Part shown: positions 42,709 through 54,318 of the stretch, in pieces
How the letters are laid out: every line of letters begins with the position of its first letter
Position numbering within the stretch: the stretch's first letter is position 1
Assembly (NCBI RefSeq): GCF_030651835.1
Contig: NZ_JAUSBX010000020.1
Span: 1-64,000 of the forward strand
Source of the DNA: Methylicorpusculum sp.
GTDB taxonomy: Bacteria > Pseudomonadota > Gammaproteobacteria > Methylococcales > Methylomonadaceae
DNA: 64,000 nt
Reading direction: 5' to 3'
Made by a program: the position numbers and the translations under genes
The notes under the pieces: model-generated
Seen by the model: the letters and a program-made list of their open reading frames with translations, nothing else
Told to the model about the DNA's origin: nothing
The model's database searches: none

Positions 42709-44334
42709 ATGAGCGCTACGACGACTCTCAAACTGGCTATTGCGCAAACCAATTTTCTGGTTGGCGACATCAAGGCCAATACCGCTAAAATCATCAATCA
42801 AGCACTGTATAGCCGCGACCGGCTTGGTGCCGATGTCGTGATCTTTCCCGAATTGCCGGTGACCGGCTATCCGCCCGAGGATTTGCTGCTGCGACCGGAT
42901 TTCATTGCCATGGCTCAACAGGCGGTGGATACGATTGCCGGACAGGTCAGCGGGATCGATGTGGTGGTTGGATATCCCGAGCAAACCGACGGTAAGCTCT
43001 ACAATACCGCTGTGGTCTGCCGGTCGGGTGAAATAATCGCGCGTTACCGGAAAAATGCGCTGCCCAATTACGGGGTGTTCGACGAACAGCGTTATTTTTC
43101 GGCCGGTTCCGATACGGCCTTGTTTACTGCAAAAGGGCGGGCGTTGGCGTTGACAATTTGTGAAGATGTCTGGCAGCCTGGGCTGATCGCCAAAAACCGG
43201 CTGGCCGGTGCCGATATTATTCTGACTTTGAACGCTTCGCCGTTTCACGCCGGAAAAATCCATCAGCGTGAGCAGATTGTCTGCGATCAAATCAAAGAGG
43301 CCGGAATCCCTCTGGTTTATGTGAATCTGGTTGGCGGACAGGATGAATTGATTTTTGACGGGGCTTCTTTCGTAGTTGATAGCGACGGTTCGGTCGTCTT
43401 TCGCGCAGAAGAATTTCAGGAACAACTCAGTGTGGTCGAGTTTTCCGGCAATAAACCGTTGAGATCGGTTTGTGCGCCGATTTATCAGCCGGTAACGAGT
43501 GAATATCAGGCCTTGGTGCTGGGTATTCGCGATTATGTCGCCAAAAATGGTTTTAAAGGCGCGCTGCTGGGATTGTCCGGCGGTATTGATTCGGCATTGG
43601 TACTCGCTTTAGCGGTCGATGCGCTGGGCGCAGGTCAGGTCGAAGCGGTTTTGATGCCTTCGCGGTACACGCACATGATGAGTATCGAGGACGCCGAGTT
43701 GGAAGCGCAGGCTTTGGGTGTTAATTACCACGTTATCCCTATAGAACCTGCGGTCACCGCCTTTGCCCAAATGCTGGAACAGGCTTTTGCCGGTAGCGCC
43801 AAAGACACGACCGAAGAAAATATCCAAGCTCGCTGCCGCGGCGTCGTGTTGATGGCGTTGTCGAACAAGCAAGGCAAATTATTGCTTACAACCGGAAATA
43901 AAAGCGAAATGAGCGTGGGATATGCGACGCTTTACGGCGATATGGCCGGTGGTTTTGCGCCGATCAAGGATGTGCCCAAATTATTGGTTTACCAACTGGC
44001 CCGTTACCGTAACAGCATCAGTCAGGTTATTCCCGAGCGGGTGTTGATCCGGCCGCCTTCTGCCGAACTCGCCCCCGATCAGGTGGATCAGGATTCACTG
44101 CCGCCTTATGATCAGCTGGATGCGATTTTGGAGCGTTATGTGGAGCGGGACCAGTCGGCGGAGGAGATCATGGCTGCCGGGTTTGCCAGGGACGATGTCT
44201 ATCGGGCTATCAGTCTGGTCGATAGAAACGAATACAAACGGCGTCAATCACCGCCCGGCATCAGGATTACCCCCAGAGCCTTCGGACGGGATAGACGTTA
44301 CCCGATTACCTCAGGATACAAAGGCGTGAACTAA
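42709..44334 (+). CDS. nadE: glutamine-dependent NAD+ synthetase
   Basis: A 541-residue two-domain enzyme. The N-terminal nitrilase-like glutaminase domain (about 5-260) has the Glu in FPELPVTGYPPED, the Lys region YRKNALPNYG and the nucleophile Cys in ICEDVWQP. The C-terminal synthetase has the ATP-pyrophosphatase loop SGGIDSAL (about 290-297) and TTGNKSEMSVGY. It makes NAD+ from deamido-NAD+, glutamine and ATP. Its stop overlaps the convergent ParA-like gene by 4 bp. No strong ribosome site is seen. Confidence 0.96.
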   Translation: MSATTTLKLAIAQTNFLVGDIKANTAKIINQALYSRDRLGADVVIFPELPVTGYPPEDLLLRPDFIAMAQQAVDTIAGQVSGIDVVVGYPEQTDGKLYNTAVVCRSGEIIARYRKNALPNYGVFDEQRYFSAGSDTALFTAKGRALALTICEDVWQPGLIAKNRLAGADIILTLNASPFHAGKIHQREQIVCDQIKEAGIPLVYVNLVGGQDELIFDGASFVVDSDGSVVFRAEEFQEQLSVVEFSGNKPLRSVCAPIYQPVTSEYQALVLGIRDYVAKNGFKGALLGLSGGIDSALVLALAVDALGAGQVEAVLMPSRYTHMMSIEDAELEAQALGVNYHVIPIEPAVTAFAQMLEQAFAGSAKDTTEENIQARCRGVVLMALSNKQGKLLLTTGNKSEMSVGYATLYGDMAGGFAPIKDVPKLLVYQLARYRNSISQVIPERVLIRPPSAELAPDQVDQDSLPPYDQLDAILERYVERDQSAEEIMAAGFARDDVYRAISLVDRNEYKRRQSPPGIRITPRAFGRDRRYPITSGYKGVN

Positions 44335-45080
44335 AGGCTCATCGCACGGCTTATTTCCTGCCAGAGTGCTTGATAAGCCTGTACCGAGCGAGCGCTGTTT
44401 TTACTGAATGCAGCCAATGGCATGCGCTCGCTGCCCATCCGTTCAATATCGCTGGCATAAGGAATATAAGTCGCCAGTATTTCAGGGTGTTGAACGGGCA
44501 GGGTGAGCATGATATCCAGATGCATTTTTTTGCGTTTGTCCACCATCGAAAAAAACGGCATCAGTTTGAGTTTTTTCAGTTTTTTATCGTGCAAAAAAGC
44601 TTTCAGTTGTTCCAGTGTGCGCTGCGATAACGTGGTGGGAATCACGGGTGACAAGAGCACGTCCGCTGCTTCGAATATCGCTTCGGACAGCAGTGAGATA
44701 GTCGGCGGGCAATCGAGAAAGATCATGTCGTAGTTGTGTTTCAAAGGAGCCAGTAATTTGTGTAAGCGTTCGGTGGGCTTCTTTTTGCCATCAAGGATCA
44801 GGTCCAGATTACGAAACGAAAAGTCGGCCGGCAGTAAATCCAATCCCTCAAAATCAGTGCCTTTGATCAAGTCATCCAAATCCAGTTGACCGGCAACCAG
44901 GTTTTTGCTGCTGCCCTTGATTTTTGGCTTGATTCTAAAGTAATAACTGCTGGCCCCCTGAGGATCAAGATCCCAAACCAGGGTGCGATAGCCTTGTTTG
45001 CTGGCCAGAAAAGCCAGATTGACAGCCGTGGATGTTTTACCAACGCCCCCTTTAATGTTGAATGCCGCTATGGTTTTCAT
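44331..45080 (-). CDS. ParA/MinD-family partition ATPase
   Basis: A 249-residue ATPase with the deviant Walker A KGGVGKTS (10-17), the A' motif WDLDPQG (about 35-41) and Walker B DMIFLDCPP (about 118-126). It has no N-terminal HTH, so it is the small, orphan ParA type that positions chromosomes, plasmids, organelles or protein clusters on the nucleoid. No ParB or parS-like gene is near. It lies 3 bp behind a CHAD-domain gene, so the two form an operon. I infer that its cargo involves the CHAD protein. Confidence 0.9.
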   Translation of the reverse strand: MKTIAAFNIKGGVGKTSTAVNLAFLASKQGYRTLVWDLDPQGASSYYFRIKPKIKGSSKNLVAGQLDLDDLIKGTDFEGLDLLPADFSFRNLDLILDGKKKPTERLHKLLAPLKHNYDMIFLDCPPTISLLSEAIFEAADVLLSPVIPTTLSQRTLEQLKAFLHDKKLKKLKLMPFFSMVDKRKKMHLDIMLTLPVQHPEILATYIPYASDIERMGSERMPLAAFSKNSARSVQAYQALWQEISRAMSL

Positions 45081-45083
45081 GGC

Positions 45084-46607
45084 TCAAGCCGCTCCGCATT
45101 TAAAAAGGGTTTCGAAAATAGTGTGGTTATCCGCTTGGTTAAATTCATTAAACCGCCCATCAAATGCTGATCGCGTTTCAATTTTCTGTTTCCCCAATGC
45201 TTCTATCAACGCGCCCATGGCTAAAAGGGTTTGTGGTGAATCAGTTTGACTATACATTTCTTTGCCCAATTCCTTGAGCGTTTGTTGTTGTATCTCTAAA
45301 TCCTGATAGGTACCCAAAATTTCCTGAAATTCCTTGAGTGAGCGAATCAGCATCTTAATGGTTGATTCAGGATAAAGGCTTTGGAAAAATTCCATCAGGT
45401 ACCTCAGCTTTTTGCAGGTTTTTCTTAAGGTGTGCAATTCTGAGGGCTGAGCATCCTCTTTAATGGCGCCAGCCTGTTTGATGACTTTTTTGTAAATAGT
45501 CCATATGCGTCGATCGGCCAGGGATTTAACCGGGATTAAGGCCTGTGTCTCATCCGGCTTTTTGATGGCGGCTGAGCGGATGTAATCTTCCCATTCAATC
45601 AGCGGGGCGTAATAATCGATAGACTTGAGTTTATCAACCAGTCCGGCATGGACCGCCCGTTTTTTTTGCACCATAAAATCATACAGAGGATCCAGGTCTG
45701 CTTTCATGGTATCCGGCAGATGGTTTTTAAATGTTTCAAAATGAAGCAGATAAATGTCTAAATCTCGCGGTTCACTGGTTATTTGTCCTAACCAGGAAAA
45801 ATAGCTTGAGAACCGTTTGGTCTGGGCGACTGGCAAAACCTGTTTAAGCTGGGTCAGGCCTGTCCGGGTACGTCTGACGGCAACCCTGAAGTCATGCAGG
45901 AATTCGCTGTCAATATCGGCAATCACGCCTTGTTCATTGAGTTTGAGCGTCTTCAATAAATGGCTGTAAATATATTTGACGGCAATGTCGGCCCGCATGT
46001 CCGGCGCCAGTTTAATATTTAATTTGGAGGAATAATCCTTGGGTTTGCGGCCTTGGGTTTTCAGTGCGTCAACTAAAACCGGCTCTTGCGTTGGCATCAA
46101 GCCCAGATTCGATAACAGCTTTGACATGCGTTTAAACGCTTTATCATAGCCTTTGACGGGGTCAAGAATGACCCGGGATTGAATCGGATCATAGTGTTCA
46201 ATAGTCATTTTAAGAACGGTTTTGGCATCACTGTTATGAATATGCAGTTGATAACAGGTGTAGTCCAAGGTTGTGATTTGCATTAGCGCGCGCATGTCCA
46301 GTAAAGGACGCAATAAATCACGAAGTTCCGCTTGACTGAAATCGTCAGCAAAAGAAGGCACTTGATCCGCCTGAACTGAGTGGACGATATTGTCGGAATC
46401 CGCTTCTTTAATAAACAGCATCGATGAAAGACGGGACTGATCATATTCGCAGATCAGGTTCTTTCTGTATAAACGCCAGTCAAAACTGTCATAAAATGTT
46501 TTTAAGGCAAAATGTTGAGTGACCAGTTCCAGAACGGTCTGTTTTTCAAGTTCCAGCAACAGTTTATCGATGCTCAGATGACCTGGTAATTTAAAATGTA
46601 AAGGCAT
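45084..46607 (-). CDS. CHAD-domain protein with a CYTH-like N-terminal region
   Basis: A 507-residue soluble protein. The N-terminal ~190 residues look like a divergent CYTH (triphosphate-tunnel) domain: an opening strand, SDNIVHSVQ and alternating charged strands, but I could not confirm the ExExK signature. The C-terminal ~290 residues are a helical CHAD domain with the conserved histidine/basic motifs HDFRVAVRRTR (about 236) and HTLRKTCKKLR (about 391). CHAD domains bind polyphosphate and localise to polyphosphate granules. It is followed by a ParA-like ATPase and faces the sixA-pst-phoU block, which makes a phosphate-storage role likely. Confidence 0.85.
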   Translation of the reverse strand: MPLHFKLPGHLSIDKLLLELEKQTVLELVTQHFALKTFYDSFDWRLYRKNLICEYDQSRLSSMLFIKEADSDNIVHSVQADQVPSFADDFSQAELRDLLRPLLDMRALMQITTLDYTCYQLHIHNSDAKTVLKMTIEHYDPIQSRVILDPVKGYDKAFKRMSKLLSNLGLMPTQEPVLVDALKTQGRKPKDYSSKLNIKLAPDMRADIAVKYIYSHLLKTLKLNEQGVIADIDSEFLHDFRVAVRRTRTGLTQLKQVLPVAQTKRFSSYFSWLGQITSEPRDLDIYLLHFETFKNHLPDTMKADLDPLYDFMVQKKRAVHAGLVDKLKSIDYYAPLIEWEDYIRSAAIKKPDETQALIPVKSLADRRIWTIYKKVIKQAGAIKEDAQPSELHTLRKTCKKLRYLMEFFQSLYPESTIKMLIRSLKEFQEILGTYQDLEIQQQTLKELGKEMYSQTDSPQTLLAMGALIEALGKQKIETRSAFDGRFNEFNQADNHTIFETLFKCGAA

Positions 46608-46923: not shown

Positions 46924-46938
46924 ATGGGTAGCCGGATG

Positions 46939-47463
46939 ATGCAAAGAGAGTTATTTATATTAAGACATGCCAAGTCGGATTGGGGAATAGAAACGGATGA
47001 TTTTAACCGTCCATTGAAGAAAAAAGGCAAAAAAGCTGCGCTGCGAATGGGCTTATGGCTGAAGCAGGAAGACCTTGTTCCTGATTGTATCATCACTTCA
47101 CCCGCGGTCAGGGCGCTTAAGACTGCGCAATTGGTTTGTGAGGCCATGGCTTTTGATAGGCGCTCAGTCATTAAAGATCCTCGGGTTTACGATGCCGATG
47201 TGGCGTCATTACTGCTTGTGTTGGCCGAACATTCGAAGACTTATCGGCGTGTTTTATTAGTCGGACATAATCCTGATCTGGAAGCGCTTTTAAGCTATCT
47301 CGCTGACAAGGTAGACGTGCCGCCGGACGGAAAATTGTTTGCAACAGCAACACTGGCAAGGCTCATGATGCCGGATGACTGGACACACTTAACCCGCTCA
47401 TCAGCGAAGTTATTGTTGCTTATTCGAGCCGCTGATTTACGATCTGAAGAGGATCCTGATTAA
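46939..47463 (+). CDS. sixA: phosphohistidine phosphatase SixA
   Basis: A 174-residue histidine phosphatase (phosphoglycerate-mutase fold). MQRELFILRHAKSD has the catalytic RHA at 9-11, and the second conserved His lies in LVGHNPDLEALL (about 98-109). SixA removes phosphate from histidine of phosphotransferase or phosphorelay proteins. I chose the ATG at 46939 because family members start directly at the RELFILRHAKS strand. A frame opening at 46864 would translate the end of MITE copy 2. It faces the CHAD-ParA operon and leads toward pst. Confidence 0.92.
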   Translation: MQRELFILRHAKSDWGIETDDFNRPLKKKGKKAALRMGLWLKQEDLVPDCIITSPAVRALKTAQLVCEAMAFDRRSVIKDPRVYDADVASLLLVLAEHSKTYRRVLLVGHNPDLEALLSYLADKVDVPPDGKLFATATLARLMMPDDWTHLTRSSAKLLLLIRAADLRSEEDPD

Positions 47464-47745: not shown

Positions 47746-48732
47746 ATGAAATTCGACAAATACACACAGATAAGCGGATTTTTTTTAGCCATGCTGGCTG
47801 CTCAAGCCAACGCTCTTCCGGTTGTTGATCCCGGTATTCCCGAATATCAGCGAGTGGGCGGAATTTCCGGAAATCTTTCCAGCGTCGGTTCTGATACGTT
47901 AGGTAGCTTGATGACACTTTGGGCGGAGGAATTCAGACGCGTTTATCCCAATGTCAATATCCAGTTTCAGTCGCTGGGTTCTTCCAGTGCTTCGCCCGCG
48001 TTGTCGGAAGGAACCGCTAATTTGGGGCCTATGAGCCGAAAAATGAAAGACAGTGAGTTGGAAGCTTTTGAAAAAAAATTCGGTTACAATCCGTTGGCTG
48101 TGCCGGTAGCCATTGATGCCTTGGCTATATTTGTCAATAAAGATAATCCAATCAGAGCGTTAACGCTCCCTCAAGTCGATGCGATGATGTCTTCAACCCG
48201 AAGATGCGGTCATCCCTTCGATATCATTCGATGGGGGCAGGTGGGGCTTGATGGCATTTGGCGGGGAAGATCGATACAGCTTTATGGGCGCAACTCAGTT
48301 TCAGGAACCTATGGGTATTTTAAAGCGCAGGTCTTGTGTGGCGGCGATTTCAAAAATAATGTCAATGAGCTGACGGGCTCGGCATCAGTGGTACAAGCTA
48401 TTTCTGTTTCTCTAAACAGCATTGGTTATTCAGGGATTGGTTATGCAACATCGGGAGTAAAAAGTGTTGCTTTGGCGATTAAGCCAGGTATGAGCTACGT
48501 TGAGGCCACGCCCGCAAATGCCATTAACGGAACCTACCCACTTGCCCGCTATTTGTATATTTATGTGAACAAGCACCCCACTAAACCCCTGGCGTCCATG
48601 GAGCTTGAATTTCTGAAATTAGTATTATCCAGACGTGGGCAGGAGATGGTGATCAAAGACGGTTATATTCCTTTGCCTAAAGAGATGATAGACAAGATTT
48701 TGAGTTCTCTTGACTCCGGTTATAAGAACTGA
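47746..48732 (+). CDS. pstS: phosphate ABC transporter substrate-binding protein PstS-like
   Basis: A 328-residue periplasmic phosphate-binding protein. The signal peptide is about 1-24 (ends ANA). Phosphate contacts are recognisable: SVGSDTLG (about 46-53), [11 protein letters not shown] (about 76-86), a [10 protein letters not shown] segment (about 89-98) and [12 protein letters not shown] (about 184-195). It is the first gene of pstS-pstC-pstA-pstB-phoU. It has a gagg-type ribosome site. I found no PhoB-type direct repeats before it; a long hairpin element lies there. Confidence 0.93.
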
Positions 48733-48889
48733 ACCTGTTTTACCCGGCAAATATGCCTATCTGAATCTGTACTGTATTTTTTGCTCAGTCGTAACGTGCC
48801 AAAACGAAGGCATGGTTGCGGCTCCTCATTTACTTTTTTCATAGGAAGTCTGATATTACAATGCTCCGGTTGAATTTCTGAGTCATGGC

Positions 48890-51169
48890 ATGAGCGAAAA
48901 GCAATTTTCCAGGCCTGCCTTTTTTGCTTCCCGCATCAAAACTTGTGGCGGCTGGTATGGCTTATGGCGAATGACGAAGGATGCGCTGCTGCGTTATTGC
49001 GTTCATGCCGGCGGTTACGGCGTCATGCTGATGATTGCACTGATGTTCTTTTACCTGGTGGCGATGGTTATGCCCTTGTTTGTTGGCTCTTCAATAAAAC
49101 AGGTCGGAGGATACCCGGTTCCGGATTCTGCGGCAGGCAAAACATTGCTGCTGGGTATGGAGGAGAAAAACAAGCTGGGCGTCCGATATACGGACAAAGG
49201 GCGCATCATTTTTTTTGAGACGGAAACCGGACGAAGCGTTAAAACGGCGTCCATTCCGCTGCCTGAAAATGTCACCATAACAGGCATTAGCCGTGAAGGG
49301 GGTGATCAGTCCTTAGTGGCGTTTGGCCTTTCTGACGGCAAGGCGCTTCTGGTTCAGCCGCATTACGCGCTGACTTTTGAGCATGATCAGGGAGTGATCA
49401 TCCCTTCAATTAATTTTCCTTTCGGTCAAGAGCCTATCAAACTGGATGAATCCGGAGAATCTTTGTCCCGGCTGGCCGTTGCCAGCGAAGAAGGACAGGC
49501 CACTTTGGCAGTTATGACGGCATCGGGTCGTCTGGTGCTCACCAGGCTGGCGGCAATCAGTTCTCCGCTCTGGGCTTCCGGCTTTAAAATAGTCCGCAAG
49601 GAATTTACTTTACCTTTGGGACCCATTGAGCATGTGCTTCTGGATAAGGCCGGACGCACTGTTTATTGGGTTGAAGCATCGGGCGTTCTCAATTGGGTTA
49701 AGGTTGATCCGGCATTTGAGGTTTTGTCCCAAGGTCGGCAAGACCTTGTCGGCCCCGGCCGAAAGCTGAGTAGTGTAACGCTGCTAAACGGACATTTGTC
49801 GATACTGGCCGGAGATGACGCCGGATCGGTTAGTCAGTGGGCTTGGGTTTTGGGCGGGCTTGATCAGTCGGTTTTGCAAAAATTAAGAACGTTTAACGTA
49901 TCCGCTCAAGCGGTCACGTCGATTGAATCCGAGCAACGGCGAAAAGGTTTTATTGCCCTGGATGTAACCGGTAAAGCCGCGCTCTTTTATTCCACCAGTG
50001 AACGGAAATTACTCGAATACCGCTTGTCCGAAAACAAAATCCGGATGATGGCTTTAGCGCCCCGGGCTACTGCGCTTTTAAGTGAGTCGGAAGACGGCAG
50101 GCTGACCTTATGGCGATTGACCAATAACCACCCTGAAGTGTCGTTAAAGGCTTTGTGGCAAAAAATCAGCTATGAAAGCTACGCAAAACCGGATTATGTT
50201 TGGCAGTCGTCCTCGTCCGGCAATGACTTTGAACCCAAATACAGCTTGACACCGCTTGTTTATGGCACCTTAAAAGCCGCATTTTATGCCTTGTTATTTG
50301 CCGTTCCTCTGGCTTTGGCCAGTGCCGTTTATACCGCTTACTTTATGGCTCCTGCCATGCGGAAAATAGTGAAGCCCGGTATCGAAATTATGGAAGCGCT
50401 ACCCACCGTTATTTTAGGGTTTTTGGCCGGACTTTGGCTGGCGCCTTTTATCGAAGCGCACTTGTTCGGCATTATCTTTACTTTATGGGTGACGCCAATC
50501 AGTGTTTTGCTGGCGGCTTACGGTTGGCAATATGCGCCCTCTTCATGGCGTCACAGTTTACCGGACGGCTGGGAAGCGGCATTTTTGATGCCGTTGATCA
50601 TGCTTGTGGTTTGGCTTTGTTTAAGTTTTGGCGGGCCGATGGAGGCCGAGTTTTTTGATGGGGGTATAAAAGACTGGTTATCTCAACAGTGGGGTATCGA
50701 ATATGATCAACGCAATGCGATGGTCGTCGGTATTGCTATGGGATTTGCCGTGATTCCTGGCATTTTCTCGATTGCAGAAGACGCTATTTTTAATGTGCCT
50801 CGTCATCTGACCATCGGTTCGCTGGCTTTAGGAGCAACACGATGGCAAACGATGACTAGGGTTGTGCTGTTAACGGCCAGTCCCGGTATTTTTTCAGCGG
50901 TTATCGTCGGTTTTGGCCGTGCGGTGGGGGAGACGATGATCGTGTTGATGGCCACCGGAAATACGCCGATGATGGATTTTAGTATCTTTCAGGGCATGCG
51001 AACCTTGTCGGCAACCATTGCTATTGAGATGCCCGAATCCGAGACCGGCAGCACGCATTCCCGGTTGTTGTTTCTGGCGGCATTGCTGCTCTTCATGTTT
51101 ACATTTGTAGTCAACACGCTATCAGAGTGGATTCGTCAGCGACTACGCCGCAGCTATAGCGCCTTGTGA
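48890..51169 (+). CDS. pstC: phosphate ABC transporter permease PstC, long form
   Basis: A 759-residue inner-membrane permease of the Pst importer. It is more than twice the length of E. coli PstC. One TM (about 40-62) is followed by a ~380-residue extracytoplasmic beta-rich domain with repeated blade-like segments (LVAFGLSDGKALL..., AALFYSTSERKLL..., LTLWRLT), reminiscent of a propeller. The canonical TM domain begins near 453, with the ATPase-coupling loop ALGATRWQTM near 645. The extended form occurs in several gammaproteobacteria. Its stop overlaps pstA by 4 bp. Confidence 0.93.
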   Translation: MSEKQFSRPAFFASRIKTCGGWYGLWRMTKDALLRYCVHAGGYGVMLMIALMFFYLVAMVMPLFVGSSIKQVGGYPVPDSAAGKTLLLGMEEKNKLGVRYTDKGRIIFFETETGRSVKTASIPLPENVTITGISREGGDQSLVAFGLSDGKALLVQPHYALTFEHDQGVIIPSINFPFGQEPIKLDESGESLSRLAVASEEGQATLAVMTASGRLVLTRLAAISSPLWASGFKIVRKEFTLPLGPIEHVLLDKAGRTVYWVEASGVLNWVKVDPAFEVLSQGRQDLVGPGRKLSSVTLLNGHLSILAGDDAGSVSQWAWVLGGLDQSVLQKLRTFNVSAQAVTSIESEQRRKGFIALDVTGKAALFYSTSERKLLEYRLSENKIRMMALAPRATALLSESEDGRLTLWRLTNNHPEVSLKALWQKISYESYAKPDYVWQSSSSGNDFEPKYSLTPLVYGTLKAAFYALLFAVPLALASAVYTAYFMAPAMRKIVKPGIEIMEALPTVILGFLAGLWLAPFIEAHLFGIIFTLWVTPISVLLAAYGWQYAPSSWRHSLPDGWEAAFLMPLIMLVVWLCLSFGGPMEAEFFDGGIKDWLSQQWGIEYDQRNAMVVGIAMGFAVIPGIFSIAEDAIFNVPRHLTIGSLALGATRWQTMTRVVLLTASPGIFSAVIVGFGRAVGETMIVLMATGNTPMMDFSIFQGMRTLSATIAIEMPESETGSTHSRLLFLAALLLFMFTFVVNTLSEWIRQRLRRSYSAL

Positions 51170-52821
51170 TGAAGTCCTGGCTGCGCACCGATACCCCCTG
51201 GATCTGGCTGAATGCCGCGGCTGTCAGTGTCAGTCTGTTATTGGTGTCCGGGCTTTTACTCCTTATCGCCATTCAGGGCTTGGGTCATTTTTGGCCCAAA
51301 TCGGTTGCAGAAATGAGTTACCTCGATGAAAAGGGCCAAGTCCGGATGATTATTGGCGAAATAGCCGGAACGAATCAACAAGGCGCGTTTATCGCCGGAT
51401 CTGCAGATGCTGGAGATGAAACAGCTGAAAGTGTATCTTTTCAATATTTGATCAAATCCGGAAACCGGGATGTCAATGGATTTGATTTCCACTGGGTATC
51501 AGCCAACAGGATAGAGCGCTGGCATTATCCTGATCAAGTGATGGTGATAGAGCGTAAGGAATGGGGTAATTATTACGGATTTATAGAAAGTATCAACGAG
51601 CAGGGCCGCGTCATTGCCACCAATCTGGAGGCCTGGCCTGTGTTATGGACTAAGCTGGACGAAACATCAAAACGAATTAAAAAAATTCAACAGATTGAAA
51701 GTCATGCCATAAGAAAGATCAGCCAACAACTTGAGCAATTAAAGCTTAGAAAAAAGCGTTTGTTGATGGAGAATTCTACCCAGCCGGATGAATTGAGCCT
51801 GCTCGAAGCTGAAATAACCCGCCACGAAGGGCAATACCAACGCTATCTGGATGAATTAGAGCAGCTATACCCGTTGATTAAACAGTACACTGTGGTTGCC
51901 AGGGATGCAAATGAACAACGGCAAATAATTCCTTTGGCTAACATCGTTCGAATTTATCAGCCCAACAGGCTGAACGGCAGCGATAAAATCCGCATTTATG
52001 GGGCACGGCTTACTGAGTTTTTGACAGGAGATCCCCGGGAGGCCAACAGTGAAGGCGGAATTTTTCCGGCGCTGTTCGGCACCGTGATGATGGTCATCGT
52101 GATGTCACTCGTCGTTGCACCTCTGGGCGTTGTTGCTGCGATTTATCTTCAGGAATATGCCAAACAGGGCTTTGTCACGCAATTGATTCGAATCGCTGTG
52201 CATAATCTGGCGGGCGTTCCGTCTGTGGTGTTTGGCGTCTTTGGTTTGGGTTTTTTTGTCACGTTGTTGGGTGGAGAGATGGACCGCTTATTTTATCCGG
52301 AGGCCTACCCTGTCCCCGTGTTTGCAACTCCGGGTTTGCTTTGGGCCTCTTTGACCATGGCCATGTTGACTTTGCCGGTGGTGATCGTGTCTACCGAAGA
52401 AGGCTTGCTGCGTGTGCCTAGGTCGATACGCGAAGGGAGTCTGGCGTTAGGCGCAACTCAGGCTGAAACACTATGGCGGACAGTTTTGCCCTTAGTCAGT
52501 CCGGCGATGTTGACCGGATTGATTTTAGCTGTTGCCAGAGCAGCGGGTGAGGTGGCGCCCTTGATGCTGGTGGGGGTTGTGAAACTGGCGCCGGCTTTGC
52601 CGGTAGACGGTTCGTTTCCCTTTGTGCATTTGGAAAGAAAGTTTATGCATTTAGGGTTTCATATTTACGATGTAGGGTTTCAAAGTGCGCATATTGAAGC
52701 CGCAAGACCGCTGGTTTACGCCACGGCTTTGTTGTTGGTCCTGGTTATTATCTGTCTCAATCTGACTGCGGTGTGTATCAGGAATTATCTGCGGAAAAAA
52801 TACCAGGCGATGGAGGAATGA
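51166..52821 (+). CDS. pstA: phosphate ABC transporter permease PstA, long form
   Basis: A 551-residue permease pairing with PstC. It has TM1 (about 13-35), a periplasmic extension including a charged coiled coil (about 165-228: [15 protein letters not shown]..., [12 protein letters not shown]), then the permease domain from about 298 with the coupling loop [11 protein letters not shown] near 428. The N-terminal extension matches the long PstC and probably forms a joint periplasmic platform. It overlaps pstC at its start and the pstB ribosome site at its end. Confidence 0.93.
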
Positions 52822-52826
52822 ACGCA

Positions 52827-53585
52827 ATGAATGACTGTATTGTCAAGGTGGATAATTTATCGCTATTTTATGGGGCCAAACGAGCGCTTCATAAAGTCAA
52901 TATGGACATTCCCCGGCAAAGAGTGACGGCATTCATTGGTCCTAGTGGTTGCGGCAAATCCTCTTTGTTAAGATGTATTAACCGCCTGAATGATTTGCTG
53001 GATGATGTGAAAATTGACGGCAGCATATTTCTCGATCATCAGGATATTTATGCCAAGTCATCAAACGTTCCGGCACTGCGCAGGCGGGTAGGAATGGTGT
53101 TTCAACGGCCCAATCCTTTTCCAAAGTCGATTTATGAAAATGTCGCCTATGGGCTTAGAATTCAGGGTATCAATCAGCGTAAGACGCTGGATGAAAAAGT
53201 AGAATTGGCTTTGCGCAAAGCAGCGCTCTGGGATGAGGCTAAAGATCGCCTTCACGATAGCGCATTGAATCTGTCCAGCGGCCAGCAACAAAGGCTGGTG
53301 ATTGCTCGGGCAATCACTATAGAACCTGAGGTTTTGTTGCTGGATGAACCTGCTTCTGCGCTAGATCCTATTTCGACCTTGAAAATAGAAGAATTAATCA
53401 GCGAGTTGCGAAATCAATATACCATCATCATCGTTACCCATAATATGCAGCAAGCAGCCAGGGTATCTGATGTAACGGCATTCATGAATAAGGGCGAACT
53501 GATTGAGATTGGCACAACCAGTCAATTATTTACCAACCCGTCAAAAAAACAGACGGAAGATTATTTAACCGGACGCTACAGCTAA
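52827..53585 (+). CDS. pstB: phosphate ABC transporter ATP-binding protein
   Basis: A 252-residue ATPase driving PstCA. It has Walker [10 protein letters not shown] (about 37-45), the Q-loop [11 protein letters not shown] typical of PstB, the signature LSSGQQQRL and Walker B VLLLDEP. The signature has Ser in place of the first Gly of LSGGQ, a small deviation. I chose the ATG at 52827 because ggagga ends 9 nt upstream, inside the pstA 3' end. An ATG at 52818 is too close to that site. Confidence 0.96.
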
Positions 53586-53598
53586 AAGGAGCCATACG

Positions 53599-54318
53599 AT
53601 GGATGTGAGCAAAATCGGGCATCATATATCCCGTAAATTCAATGAAGAACTTGAAGATATCCGCAATAAAGTCATGATCATGGGCGGCCTTGTTGAAAAC
53701 CAGATTGATGAGGCTGCCACGGCGTTAATGAACAGCGATTTGGAGCTGGCCGAAAAAGTCATACAACAAGACAGTCAGGTTAATCAGCTGGAAATGCAGA
53801 TTGACAAGGAGTGCACCCAAATCATGGCTTTACGGCAACCTGCGGCTTTTGATTTGCGCTTGCTGTTGTCGGTGATAAAAACCATCAATGATCTGGAACG
53901 AGCCGGTGATGAAGCGATAAAAATTGCGGAAATGGCTATTCACTTGAATGGTATGGATCATAAGCATAAGGGTGAAGATTACTATGAAATCCAGCATCTT
54001 GTGTCTATGGTGAAAGAGATGCTGCACGGAGCGCTGGATGCGTTTGCCCGAATGAATGTAGACCAGGTGGTTGCAATTACCGGTCAGGATCAAAAAGTGG
54101 ATAGGGAATACAGCAGTATCATTCGTCAACTGATCTCCAGAATGATGGAAGATCCGCGAAATGTTGGCCGGGCACTGGATGTGTTATGGATGGCCAGGGC
54201 CTTGGAACGTATCGGCGATCATGCCTGCAATATTTGCGAGCATGTGATTTACATGGTCAGAGGCGAAGATGTGCGGCATATCAGCCATGAAGAACTGGAG
54301 CGCAAGATACAAGGCTAG
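53599..54318 (+). CDS. phoU: phosphate transport regulator PhoU
   Basis: A 239-residue all-helical protein of two three-helix PhoU repeats. Metal-cluster segments are ERAGDEAIKIAEMA (about 98-111) and ALERIGDHACNICEHV (about 199-214). It connects the Pst transporter to the PhoR/PhoB system and restrains phosphate uptake. phoB and phoR are not in the window. It lies 13 bp after pstB with aaggag before the ATG. MITE copy 4 follows 78 bp later. Confidence 0.97.
   Translation: MDVSKIGHHISRKFNEELEDIRNKVMIMGGLVENQIDEAATALMNSDLELAEKVIQQDSQVNQLEMQIDKECTQIMALRQPAAFDLRLLLSVIKTINDLERAGDEAIKIAEMAIHLNGMDHKHKGEDYYEIQHLVSMVKEMLHGALDAFARMNVDQVVAITGQDQKVDREYSSIIRQLISRMMEDPRNVGRALDVLWMARALERIGDHACNICEHVIYMVRGEDVRHISHEELERKIQG

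Follow-up and report, generated by a model that had tools for sequence, protein, structure and literature searches.

Background

In the carboxysome-positioning system McdA/McdB, a small stand-alone ParA-type ATPase is encoded together with an adaptor for its cargo and without an adjacent ParB. The same arrangement is found in a stretch of 64,000 nucleotides from Methylicorpusculum sp. (assembly GCF_030651835.1, contig NZ_JAUSBX010000020.1, positions 1 to 64,000; hereafter the window), where an orphan ParA/MinD-type ATPase of 249 amino acids (aa), the proposed motor, is encoded on the minus strand at 44331..45080, and a CHAD protein of 507 aa, the proposed adaptor for polyphosphate (polyP) granules, on the same strand at 45084..46607. 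The pair is here put forward as a candidate dedicated system for positioning polyP granules, a reading which we consider probable.

A protein already reported for such a task is AlgP of Pseudomonas aeruginosa, which spaces polyP granules (PMC9239181 and PMC13052382, in the parts concerned). According to the relevant part of PMC13052382, a 2025 review, this single protein binds both granule and DNA, and its dependence on ATP is unknown; the same part lists AlgP as the sole granule placer, with the corresponding Caulobacter proteins unidentified and the use of energy open. Cargo and link to the nucleoid would be shared between AlgP and the pair described here. In a 2023 study on the cargoes of ParA/MinD ATPases, the word "polyphosphate" is absent from the main text (PMC10241942).

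CHAD proteins, or phosins, such as CtCHAD, those of Ralstonia eutropha and YgiF, have in common with the window protein the CHAD fold and the residues in contact with polyP. The window CHAD differs in being coupled to a ParA and, unlike the active polyphosphatase YgiF, in having an N-terminal domain without the EXEXK motif. Loss of the Ralstonia CHAD proteins, and of ygiF, had no apparent phenotype, as told in the part of PMC6537752 concerned, and the pair offers a role for proteins of this kind.

The gene association itself is already in print, since a folD-ppk-parA-CHAD cluster has been described in Acidithiobacillus (PMC6416229, PMC10892726); the likeness is one of gene association. The parts of the two articles which deal with the cluster read it as cAMP/polyP or metal-related metabolism, call the ParA a partition protein only and hold no idea of granule positioning, the scope of this comparison being the open PMC literature exclusive of preprints.

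Results and discussion

Recurrence and co-occurrence of CHAD and ParA

The two window genes are co-directional and 3 bp apart, as the preliminary description of the locus had stated, and their pairing is no local accident. A scan of named genomes with the CHAD profile gave 80 loci, the best 80 of 573 relatives, eight of which were set aside as the contig ended. ParA directly follows CHAD in 43 of the 72 assessable loci and is absent next to it in 29, most of these being Methylobacter-type; 19 of the 43 adjacent pairs overlap by 4 bp, as judged from the alignment start. The pairs include Sedimenticola, Thiodiazotropha, SAR324 and Geoalkalibacter, and among the lowest-ranked loci (L233-L259), mostly from other Gammaproteobacteria, 24 of 27 show adjacency, all but L233, L236 and L248 (locus truncated). 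Plasmids of Paracoccus (Alphaproteobacteria) also have the pair, in six records by coordinates and three by annotation; there the order is CHAD-ParA-CYTH, accompanied by NUDIX, a second CYTH or both. The pair is present as well in families that share the window's phylum but not its class (L140, L144, L145, L155), the order in L140 being CHAD-ParA-CYTH-NUDIX. Recurrent adjacency outside close relatives, on which the preliminary description had made its interpretation depend, is thus found in other Gammaproteobacteria, in Paracoccus plasmids, in other families and in metagenome-assembled genomes (MAGs) of SAR324 and Geoalkalibacter.

Adjacency was counted by hand in 20 of the 29 ParA-positive genomes among the first 61 relatives, and within 500 bp in 42 of 101 ParA-positive genomes of an order-level sample; 22 of the 28 genomes with a CHAD gene and no adjacent ParA have a ParA elsewhere. 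On the best tree of 123 ParAs, from which three ParAs under 200 aa were left out, the CHAD-paired state needs 7 changes, 2 of them forced by well-supported branches. Most CHAD-paired ParAs fall together in a single group with weak support, among whose members are SAR324, Geoalkalibacter, Sedimenticola and the methanotrophs, and further ones are found in L140/L032/L155 and in L144/L145. The pair seems to be ancient and to have stayed together for the most part, with separation in Methylobacter-type genomes. At one locus (L082:5497-7891, genome G017), an opposite-strand open reading frame (ORF) lies between two CHAD gene pieces, with ParA open.

The association extends to whole genomes. CHAD was found in 29/29 ParA-positive against 14/32 ParA-negative genomes of the first 61 relatives (p 4e-7), in 97/101 against 55/150 of the 251 genomes of the order (p 4e-24) and in 56/66 against 120/283 of the 349 genomes of the phylum, where the p-values ignore relatedness, being without phylogenetic correction, and a genome is labelled ParA-negative when no match reaches E <= 1e-30, a label that also depends on how complete the genome is. 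Genome G614 (94% complete, 470 contigs), labelled ParA-negative, has both CHAD residues discussed below, K129 and Y154, and may be a false negative. The co-occurrence with ppk, a survey of which was proposed along with the preliminary description, is weak: among the 61 relatives, Ppk1 is found in 28/29 ParA-positive and 25/32 ParA-negative genomes (p 0.055, not significant), because it is nearly universal there.

A plasmid-type parA could have come to lie beside a phosphate locus by chance or hitch-hiking, and the annotation as a plain ParA-family/AAA protein and the presence of relatives on plasmids agree with this; the recurrence across classes, the 4-bp overlaps, the co-occurrence and the residue coupling reported below contradict it, leaving it the least credible of the explanations considered.

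An intact ParA-type ATPase

The ParA protein matches Pfam AAA_31/CbiA (AAA_31 E 3.8e-34) and carries the motifs of ParA/MinD ATPases, namely a deviant Walker A (KGGVGKT) with the signature lysine, the switch aspartate and Walker B; K10, K15, T16, D37, D39 and D123 are invariant in 41/41 paired homologues. Its structural model (predicted local distance difference test, pLDDT, 84.5) has the ParA fold, matching ParA-ATP 8ray in Foldseek with E 1.8e-18 and a template modelling (TM) score of 0.86/0.84. Soj is among the further matches and, lower down, McdA (6non) and BcsQ. McdA is thus a fold relative, whereas in sequence the window ParA is nearer to ParA/Soj structures. Non-specific DNA binding and ATP-dependent dimerisation, traits of the ParA/MinD family, would be expected of this protein too; it is basic, with an isoelectric point (pI) of 9.40, and R183 and K184 are invariant in the same 41/41 homologues.

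The gene had been described as lacking a ParB partner, and indeed in the window it stands between CHAD and a convergent nadE, with which it overlaps by 4 bp; the ParABS arrangement, with a ParB gene adjoining parA, was not found. ParA is present as one copy per genome in 29/29 ParA-positive relatives, and no relatives of the window ParA were found among viral contigs.

A polyphosphate-binding fold joined to a degenerate tunnel domain

In the CHAD protein (model pLDDT 94.2), Pfam CHAD (PF05235) spans residues 216-444 (E 8.7e-50), and residues 1-215 have no match above the cut-off. The C-terminal half (residues 205-507, 45087..45995, minus strand) has the CHAD fold, resembling polyP-bound CtCHAD 6qva with E 2.2e-17, TMt 0.94 and 30% identity (Foldseek on the model). 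H238, R241, R245, R281, R402, Y403 and K425 align with the polyP-contact residues of CtCHAD, and mutation of those core residues weakens its polyP binding (PMC6537752, part concerned). R402 is conserved in 51/52 homologues and the other six in 52/52; at the four-residue back patch, the alignment reads two basic residues, K373 and K374. Fold and contact residues both fit polyP binding by this half of the protein, which would then be able to bind granules.

The N-terminal domain (residues 1-183, 46059..46607, minus strand), proposed to dock ParA, shows the tunnel fold of triphosphate tunnel metalloenzymes (TTM), with matches including 2een and 7ns8 which are weak and consistent (Foldseek E about 1e-5 to 1e-3, TMt 0.42-0.69). 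The catalytic motif of TTM enzymes, EXEXK, is found in 0/52 homologues within the first 80 residues, and Pfam CYTH gives no hit in the window protein; the domain appears degenerate. These negatives bear on the adenylate cyclase role proposed for the CYTH-like/CHAD protein of Acidithiobacillus in the relevant part of PMC6416229. Part in cAMP signalling would agree with the match of the N-terminal TTM fold to class IV cyclases, and with motif and family hit both missing it is very improbable for the protein studied here.

In the preliminary description the CHAD protein was likened to McdB, and this analogy fails. A disordered basic N-terminus is reported in the part of PMC10241942 concerned as a feature shared by the partners of ParA/MinD ATPases; the window adaptor is instead a folded TTM-like/CHAD protein, with a mean pLDDT of 90-96 in 10-residue blocks across residues 1-180 and an N-domain pI of 5.95, its ParA-linked residues lie in the degenerate TTM domain, and its cargo would be polyP.

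Two CHAD residues follow the presence of ParA

Among 94 distinct full-length CHADs (102 rows minus identical sequences, truncated CHADs left out), the position differing most between genomes with and without ParA is K129 (codon 46221-46223, minus strand), a lysine in 84/84 ParA-positive and 5/10 ParA-negative sequences, followed by Y154 (codon 46146-46148, minus strand), with 81/84 against 5/10. A replication set was drawn from 79 CHAD stretches out of 152 CHAD-matching genomes, with the exclusion of 20/60 ParA-positive duplicates and of 5/19 ParA-negative rows already in the discovery set (where the ParA status of G581 was unknown). In this set Y154 ranks 1st of 451 positions (Y in 39/40 against 1/14) and K129 2nd (K in 40/40 against 4/14), while the ParA-negative CHADs retain the seven polyP residues in 12-14 of 14. 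Combined, K129 is present in 120/120 ParA-positive and 9/24 ParA-negative sequences, and Y154 in 116/120 (the other four have F) and 6/24. Both are retained in 54/54 CHADs whose parA is located elsewhere and are also present in Paracoccus L032 and in L140, L144 and L120; their columns are invariant in a 15-sequence cross-class alignment. A relatedness-aware ranking of 160 conserved positions over 10 independent pairs places Y154 1st, A478 2nd and K129 3rd. The interdomain linker YSSKL (192-196) was also considered as a ParA-binding peptide; it is largely conserved in ParA-negative CHADs too, its residues Y192 and K195 are weak in the tree-paired test, and it was dropped for K129/Y154.

We infer that the N-domain has a ParA-dependent function, most simply contact with, or docking of, ParA. 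The constraint on CHAD residues tracks the presence of ParA and so fits the relation of adaptor and motor that the preliminary description had assigned to the two proteins, an assignment which also finds support in the co-occurrence and the polyP-related neighbours and which needs correction in that the adaptor is not McdB-like.

K129 and Y154 might instead bind a ligand required only alongside ParA. This possibility belongs to an explanation in which ParA regulates or localises polyP metabolism instead of moving granules: it would be a nucleotide-sensing switch that, via the TTM-like domain, controls the activity of CHAD or the polyP kinase, or it would bring CHAD to one fixed place in the cell, as BcsQ does for cellulose secretion. 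That the two residues lie in a former triphosphate-binding fold, that operons with the pair have Ppk1, CYTH, NUDIX or Ppx nearby and that the fold search also matched BcsQ would all suit such a role. The nearest matches of the ParA are nonetheless chromosome and plasmid partition ATPases, it has kept the motifs that mark positioning ATPases, and helix-hairpin-helix (HhH)/Lys-rich proteins of nucleoid type follow ParA in 4 loci, so that a regulatory ParA is judged rather unlikely.

Proposed mechanism and the observations that qualify it

In the granule-positioning reading, the CHAD half of the adaptor would coat polyP granules, and its pseudo-enzymatic N-terminal TTM domain would dock and trigger the nucleoid-bound ParA-type ATPase through direct contact between the two proteins. 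A ParA-gradient mechanism would then move the granules, space them along the nucleoid and share them between daughter cells. At the level of sequence, this is supported by the coupled pair, the polyP/phosphate/Mg context, the constraint on K129/Y154, the polyP-binding fold of CHAD with its contact residues and the fold of ParA with its motifs. More generally, the chances seem even that a dedicated ATP-driven granule positioner exists in many proteobacteria and, it may be, in SAR324 and Geoalkalibacter, in which a dead TTM domain fused to the polyP-binding CHAD domain has become a ParA-docking, ATPase-triggering module with K129/Y154 at its core, and that the link between the proteins outlasts the separation of their genes. 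A named motor-adaptor pair and two point mutations make the placement and inheritance of granules directly testable, for example in cultured methanotrophs.

Several observations weigh against this reading. Besides the missing disordered, positively charged N-terminus, the SAR324 and Geoalkalibacter pairs each rest on a single MAG, adjacency in the phylum sample was seen in at least 6 of 66 ParA-positive genomes (G000, G162, G176, G200, G216, G381), and ParA occurs without a visible CHAD in 4/101 genomes of the order and 10/66 of the phylum. The replication genomes come partly from genera in the discovery set, and the tree-paired sign test is underpowered, giving over 10 pairs 5.2 same vs 0.2 opposite for Y154 (median p 0.0625) and 3.3 vs 0 for K129 (median p 0.25). 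Pho boxes sought upstream of CHAD/sixA and pst were matched as well by shuffled sequence in 16%, 67% and 50% of cases, and Pho-box control of these genes was dropped.

By the criteria of this analysis, 60/123 ParAs of the tree lie beside none of the three genes CHAD, MgtE and Ppk1. Where ParA is apart from CHAD (22 Methylobacter-type genomes, some of them also among the 61 relatives), it lies beside glycogen phosphorylase in 11, of which one is confirmed by Pfam, beside D-Tyr-tRNA deacylase in 8 and beside MgtE in 1; MgtE had been the neighbour expected there and was discarded as such. The many members without a CHAD neighbour, the glycogen phosphorylase genes and a ParA on Marinobacter pMAQU02 with phbB at a distance of about 4 kb would suit a general positioner of storage inclusions, its cargo depending on the lineage and being polyP where CHAD is the adaptor. 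The single ParA copy in all 29 ParA-positive relatives speaks against it, as does the constraint on CHAD residues where ParA lies elsewhere, CHAD seeming to be still the partner, and we regard a general positioner as improbable.

Gene neighbourhood of the pair

Neighbouring genes of the pair point to a polyP/phosphate/Mg context. Ppk1 occurs in 4/80 named loci, each of them ParA-adjacent. A Geoalkalibacter MAG (L257) has the order Ppk1-CYTH-CHAD-ParA; one gammaproteobacterial MAG (L245) has Ppk1, a UspA-like gene (by eye), a Na/Pi cotransporter, a SixA-like-NUDIX fusion, CHAD-ParA and Ppx/GppA, and another (L235) Ppk1, PhoU-like, PiT, CNNM/CorC and CHAD-ParA. The fusion of a SixA-like phosphatase to a NUDIX domain adjoining CHAD-ParA lies at L245:4753-5721. 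Other orders are CHAD-ParA-CYTH (L255) and CHAD-ParA-SixA-like (L120) and, in methanotrophs, CHAD-ParA-Ppk1 (L084/L227, one genome), ParA-MgtE-Ppk1 (L069) and CHAD-ParA-MgtE (L079, L189, L199). MgtE adjoins ParA in seven loci outside the Methylobacter-type set, and CNNM/CorC adjoins CHAD in L234, L235, L237 and L244, divergently in three.

The four gammaproteobacterial MAGs with a protein of HhH domain (PF14520) and Lys-rich tail directly after ParA are L234 (6330-6686), L237 (6707-7051), L242 (2560-2913) and L244 (6001-6363). This product looks like a putative nucleoid-binding partner, similar in character to AlgP. A filter for Lys-rich tails over 160 loci recovered three of the four and no others, the fourth running off the contig; by the same filter the window has no Lys-rich-tailed ORF, which sets it apart from AlgP.

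In the window, the pair faces a SixA-like histidine phosphatase gene (46936..47463, plus strand; His_Phos_1 E 2.7e-9) and pstS-pstC-pstA-pstB-phoU (47746..54318, plus strand; NCBIfam), while one CHAD and, on other contigs, two Ppk1 genes were found by a search of the genome. The match to TIGR00249 begins at residue 29 of the 199-aa SixA-like ORF, so that translation probably begins near 46936, which leaves 328 bp to the start of CHAD, in accordance with the distance of about 330 bp given earlier. The block had been called sixA and a complete pstSCAB-phoU set; PstS, PstA, PstB and PhoU exceed the NCBIfam cut-offs, whereas the SixA-like protein is below its own (64.7 against 74.5 bits) and is not placed in the SixA equivalog, and the PstC model is the top match of a 759-aa protein at 189.9 bits, under the cut-off of 196.45. 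The SixA-Pst block is found with CHAD also where ParA lies elsewhere, so the link to phosphate that had been drawn from it is supported for CHAD rather than for ParA.

Further loci of the ParA family

At L135:3476-4189 and L147:1311-1958, a protein with an RnfH ubiquitin-like domain (PF03658) and a Lys/Ala-rich, histone H1-like tail is encoded divergently from the same ParA family; such loci occur in several families outside the window's class, for which Magnetococcia is only a guess. In the Methylobacter-type loci L272 and L280, ParA has a GGDEF response regulator on one side and glycogen phosphorylase on the other. On the conjugative plasmid pMAQU02 of Marinobacter nauticus (L035), the member near phbB is a distant one (41%) and stands beside pyruvate kinase. 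Lastly, within the pst block of the window (48890-52821), PstC (759 aa) and PstA (551 aa) each carry a long N-terminal region ahead of the part matching the permease models.

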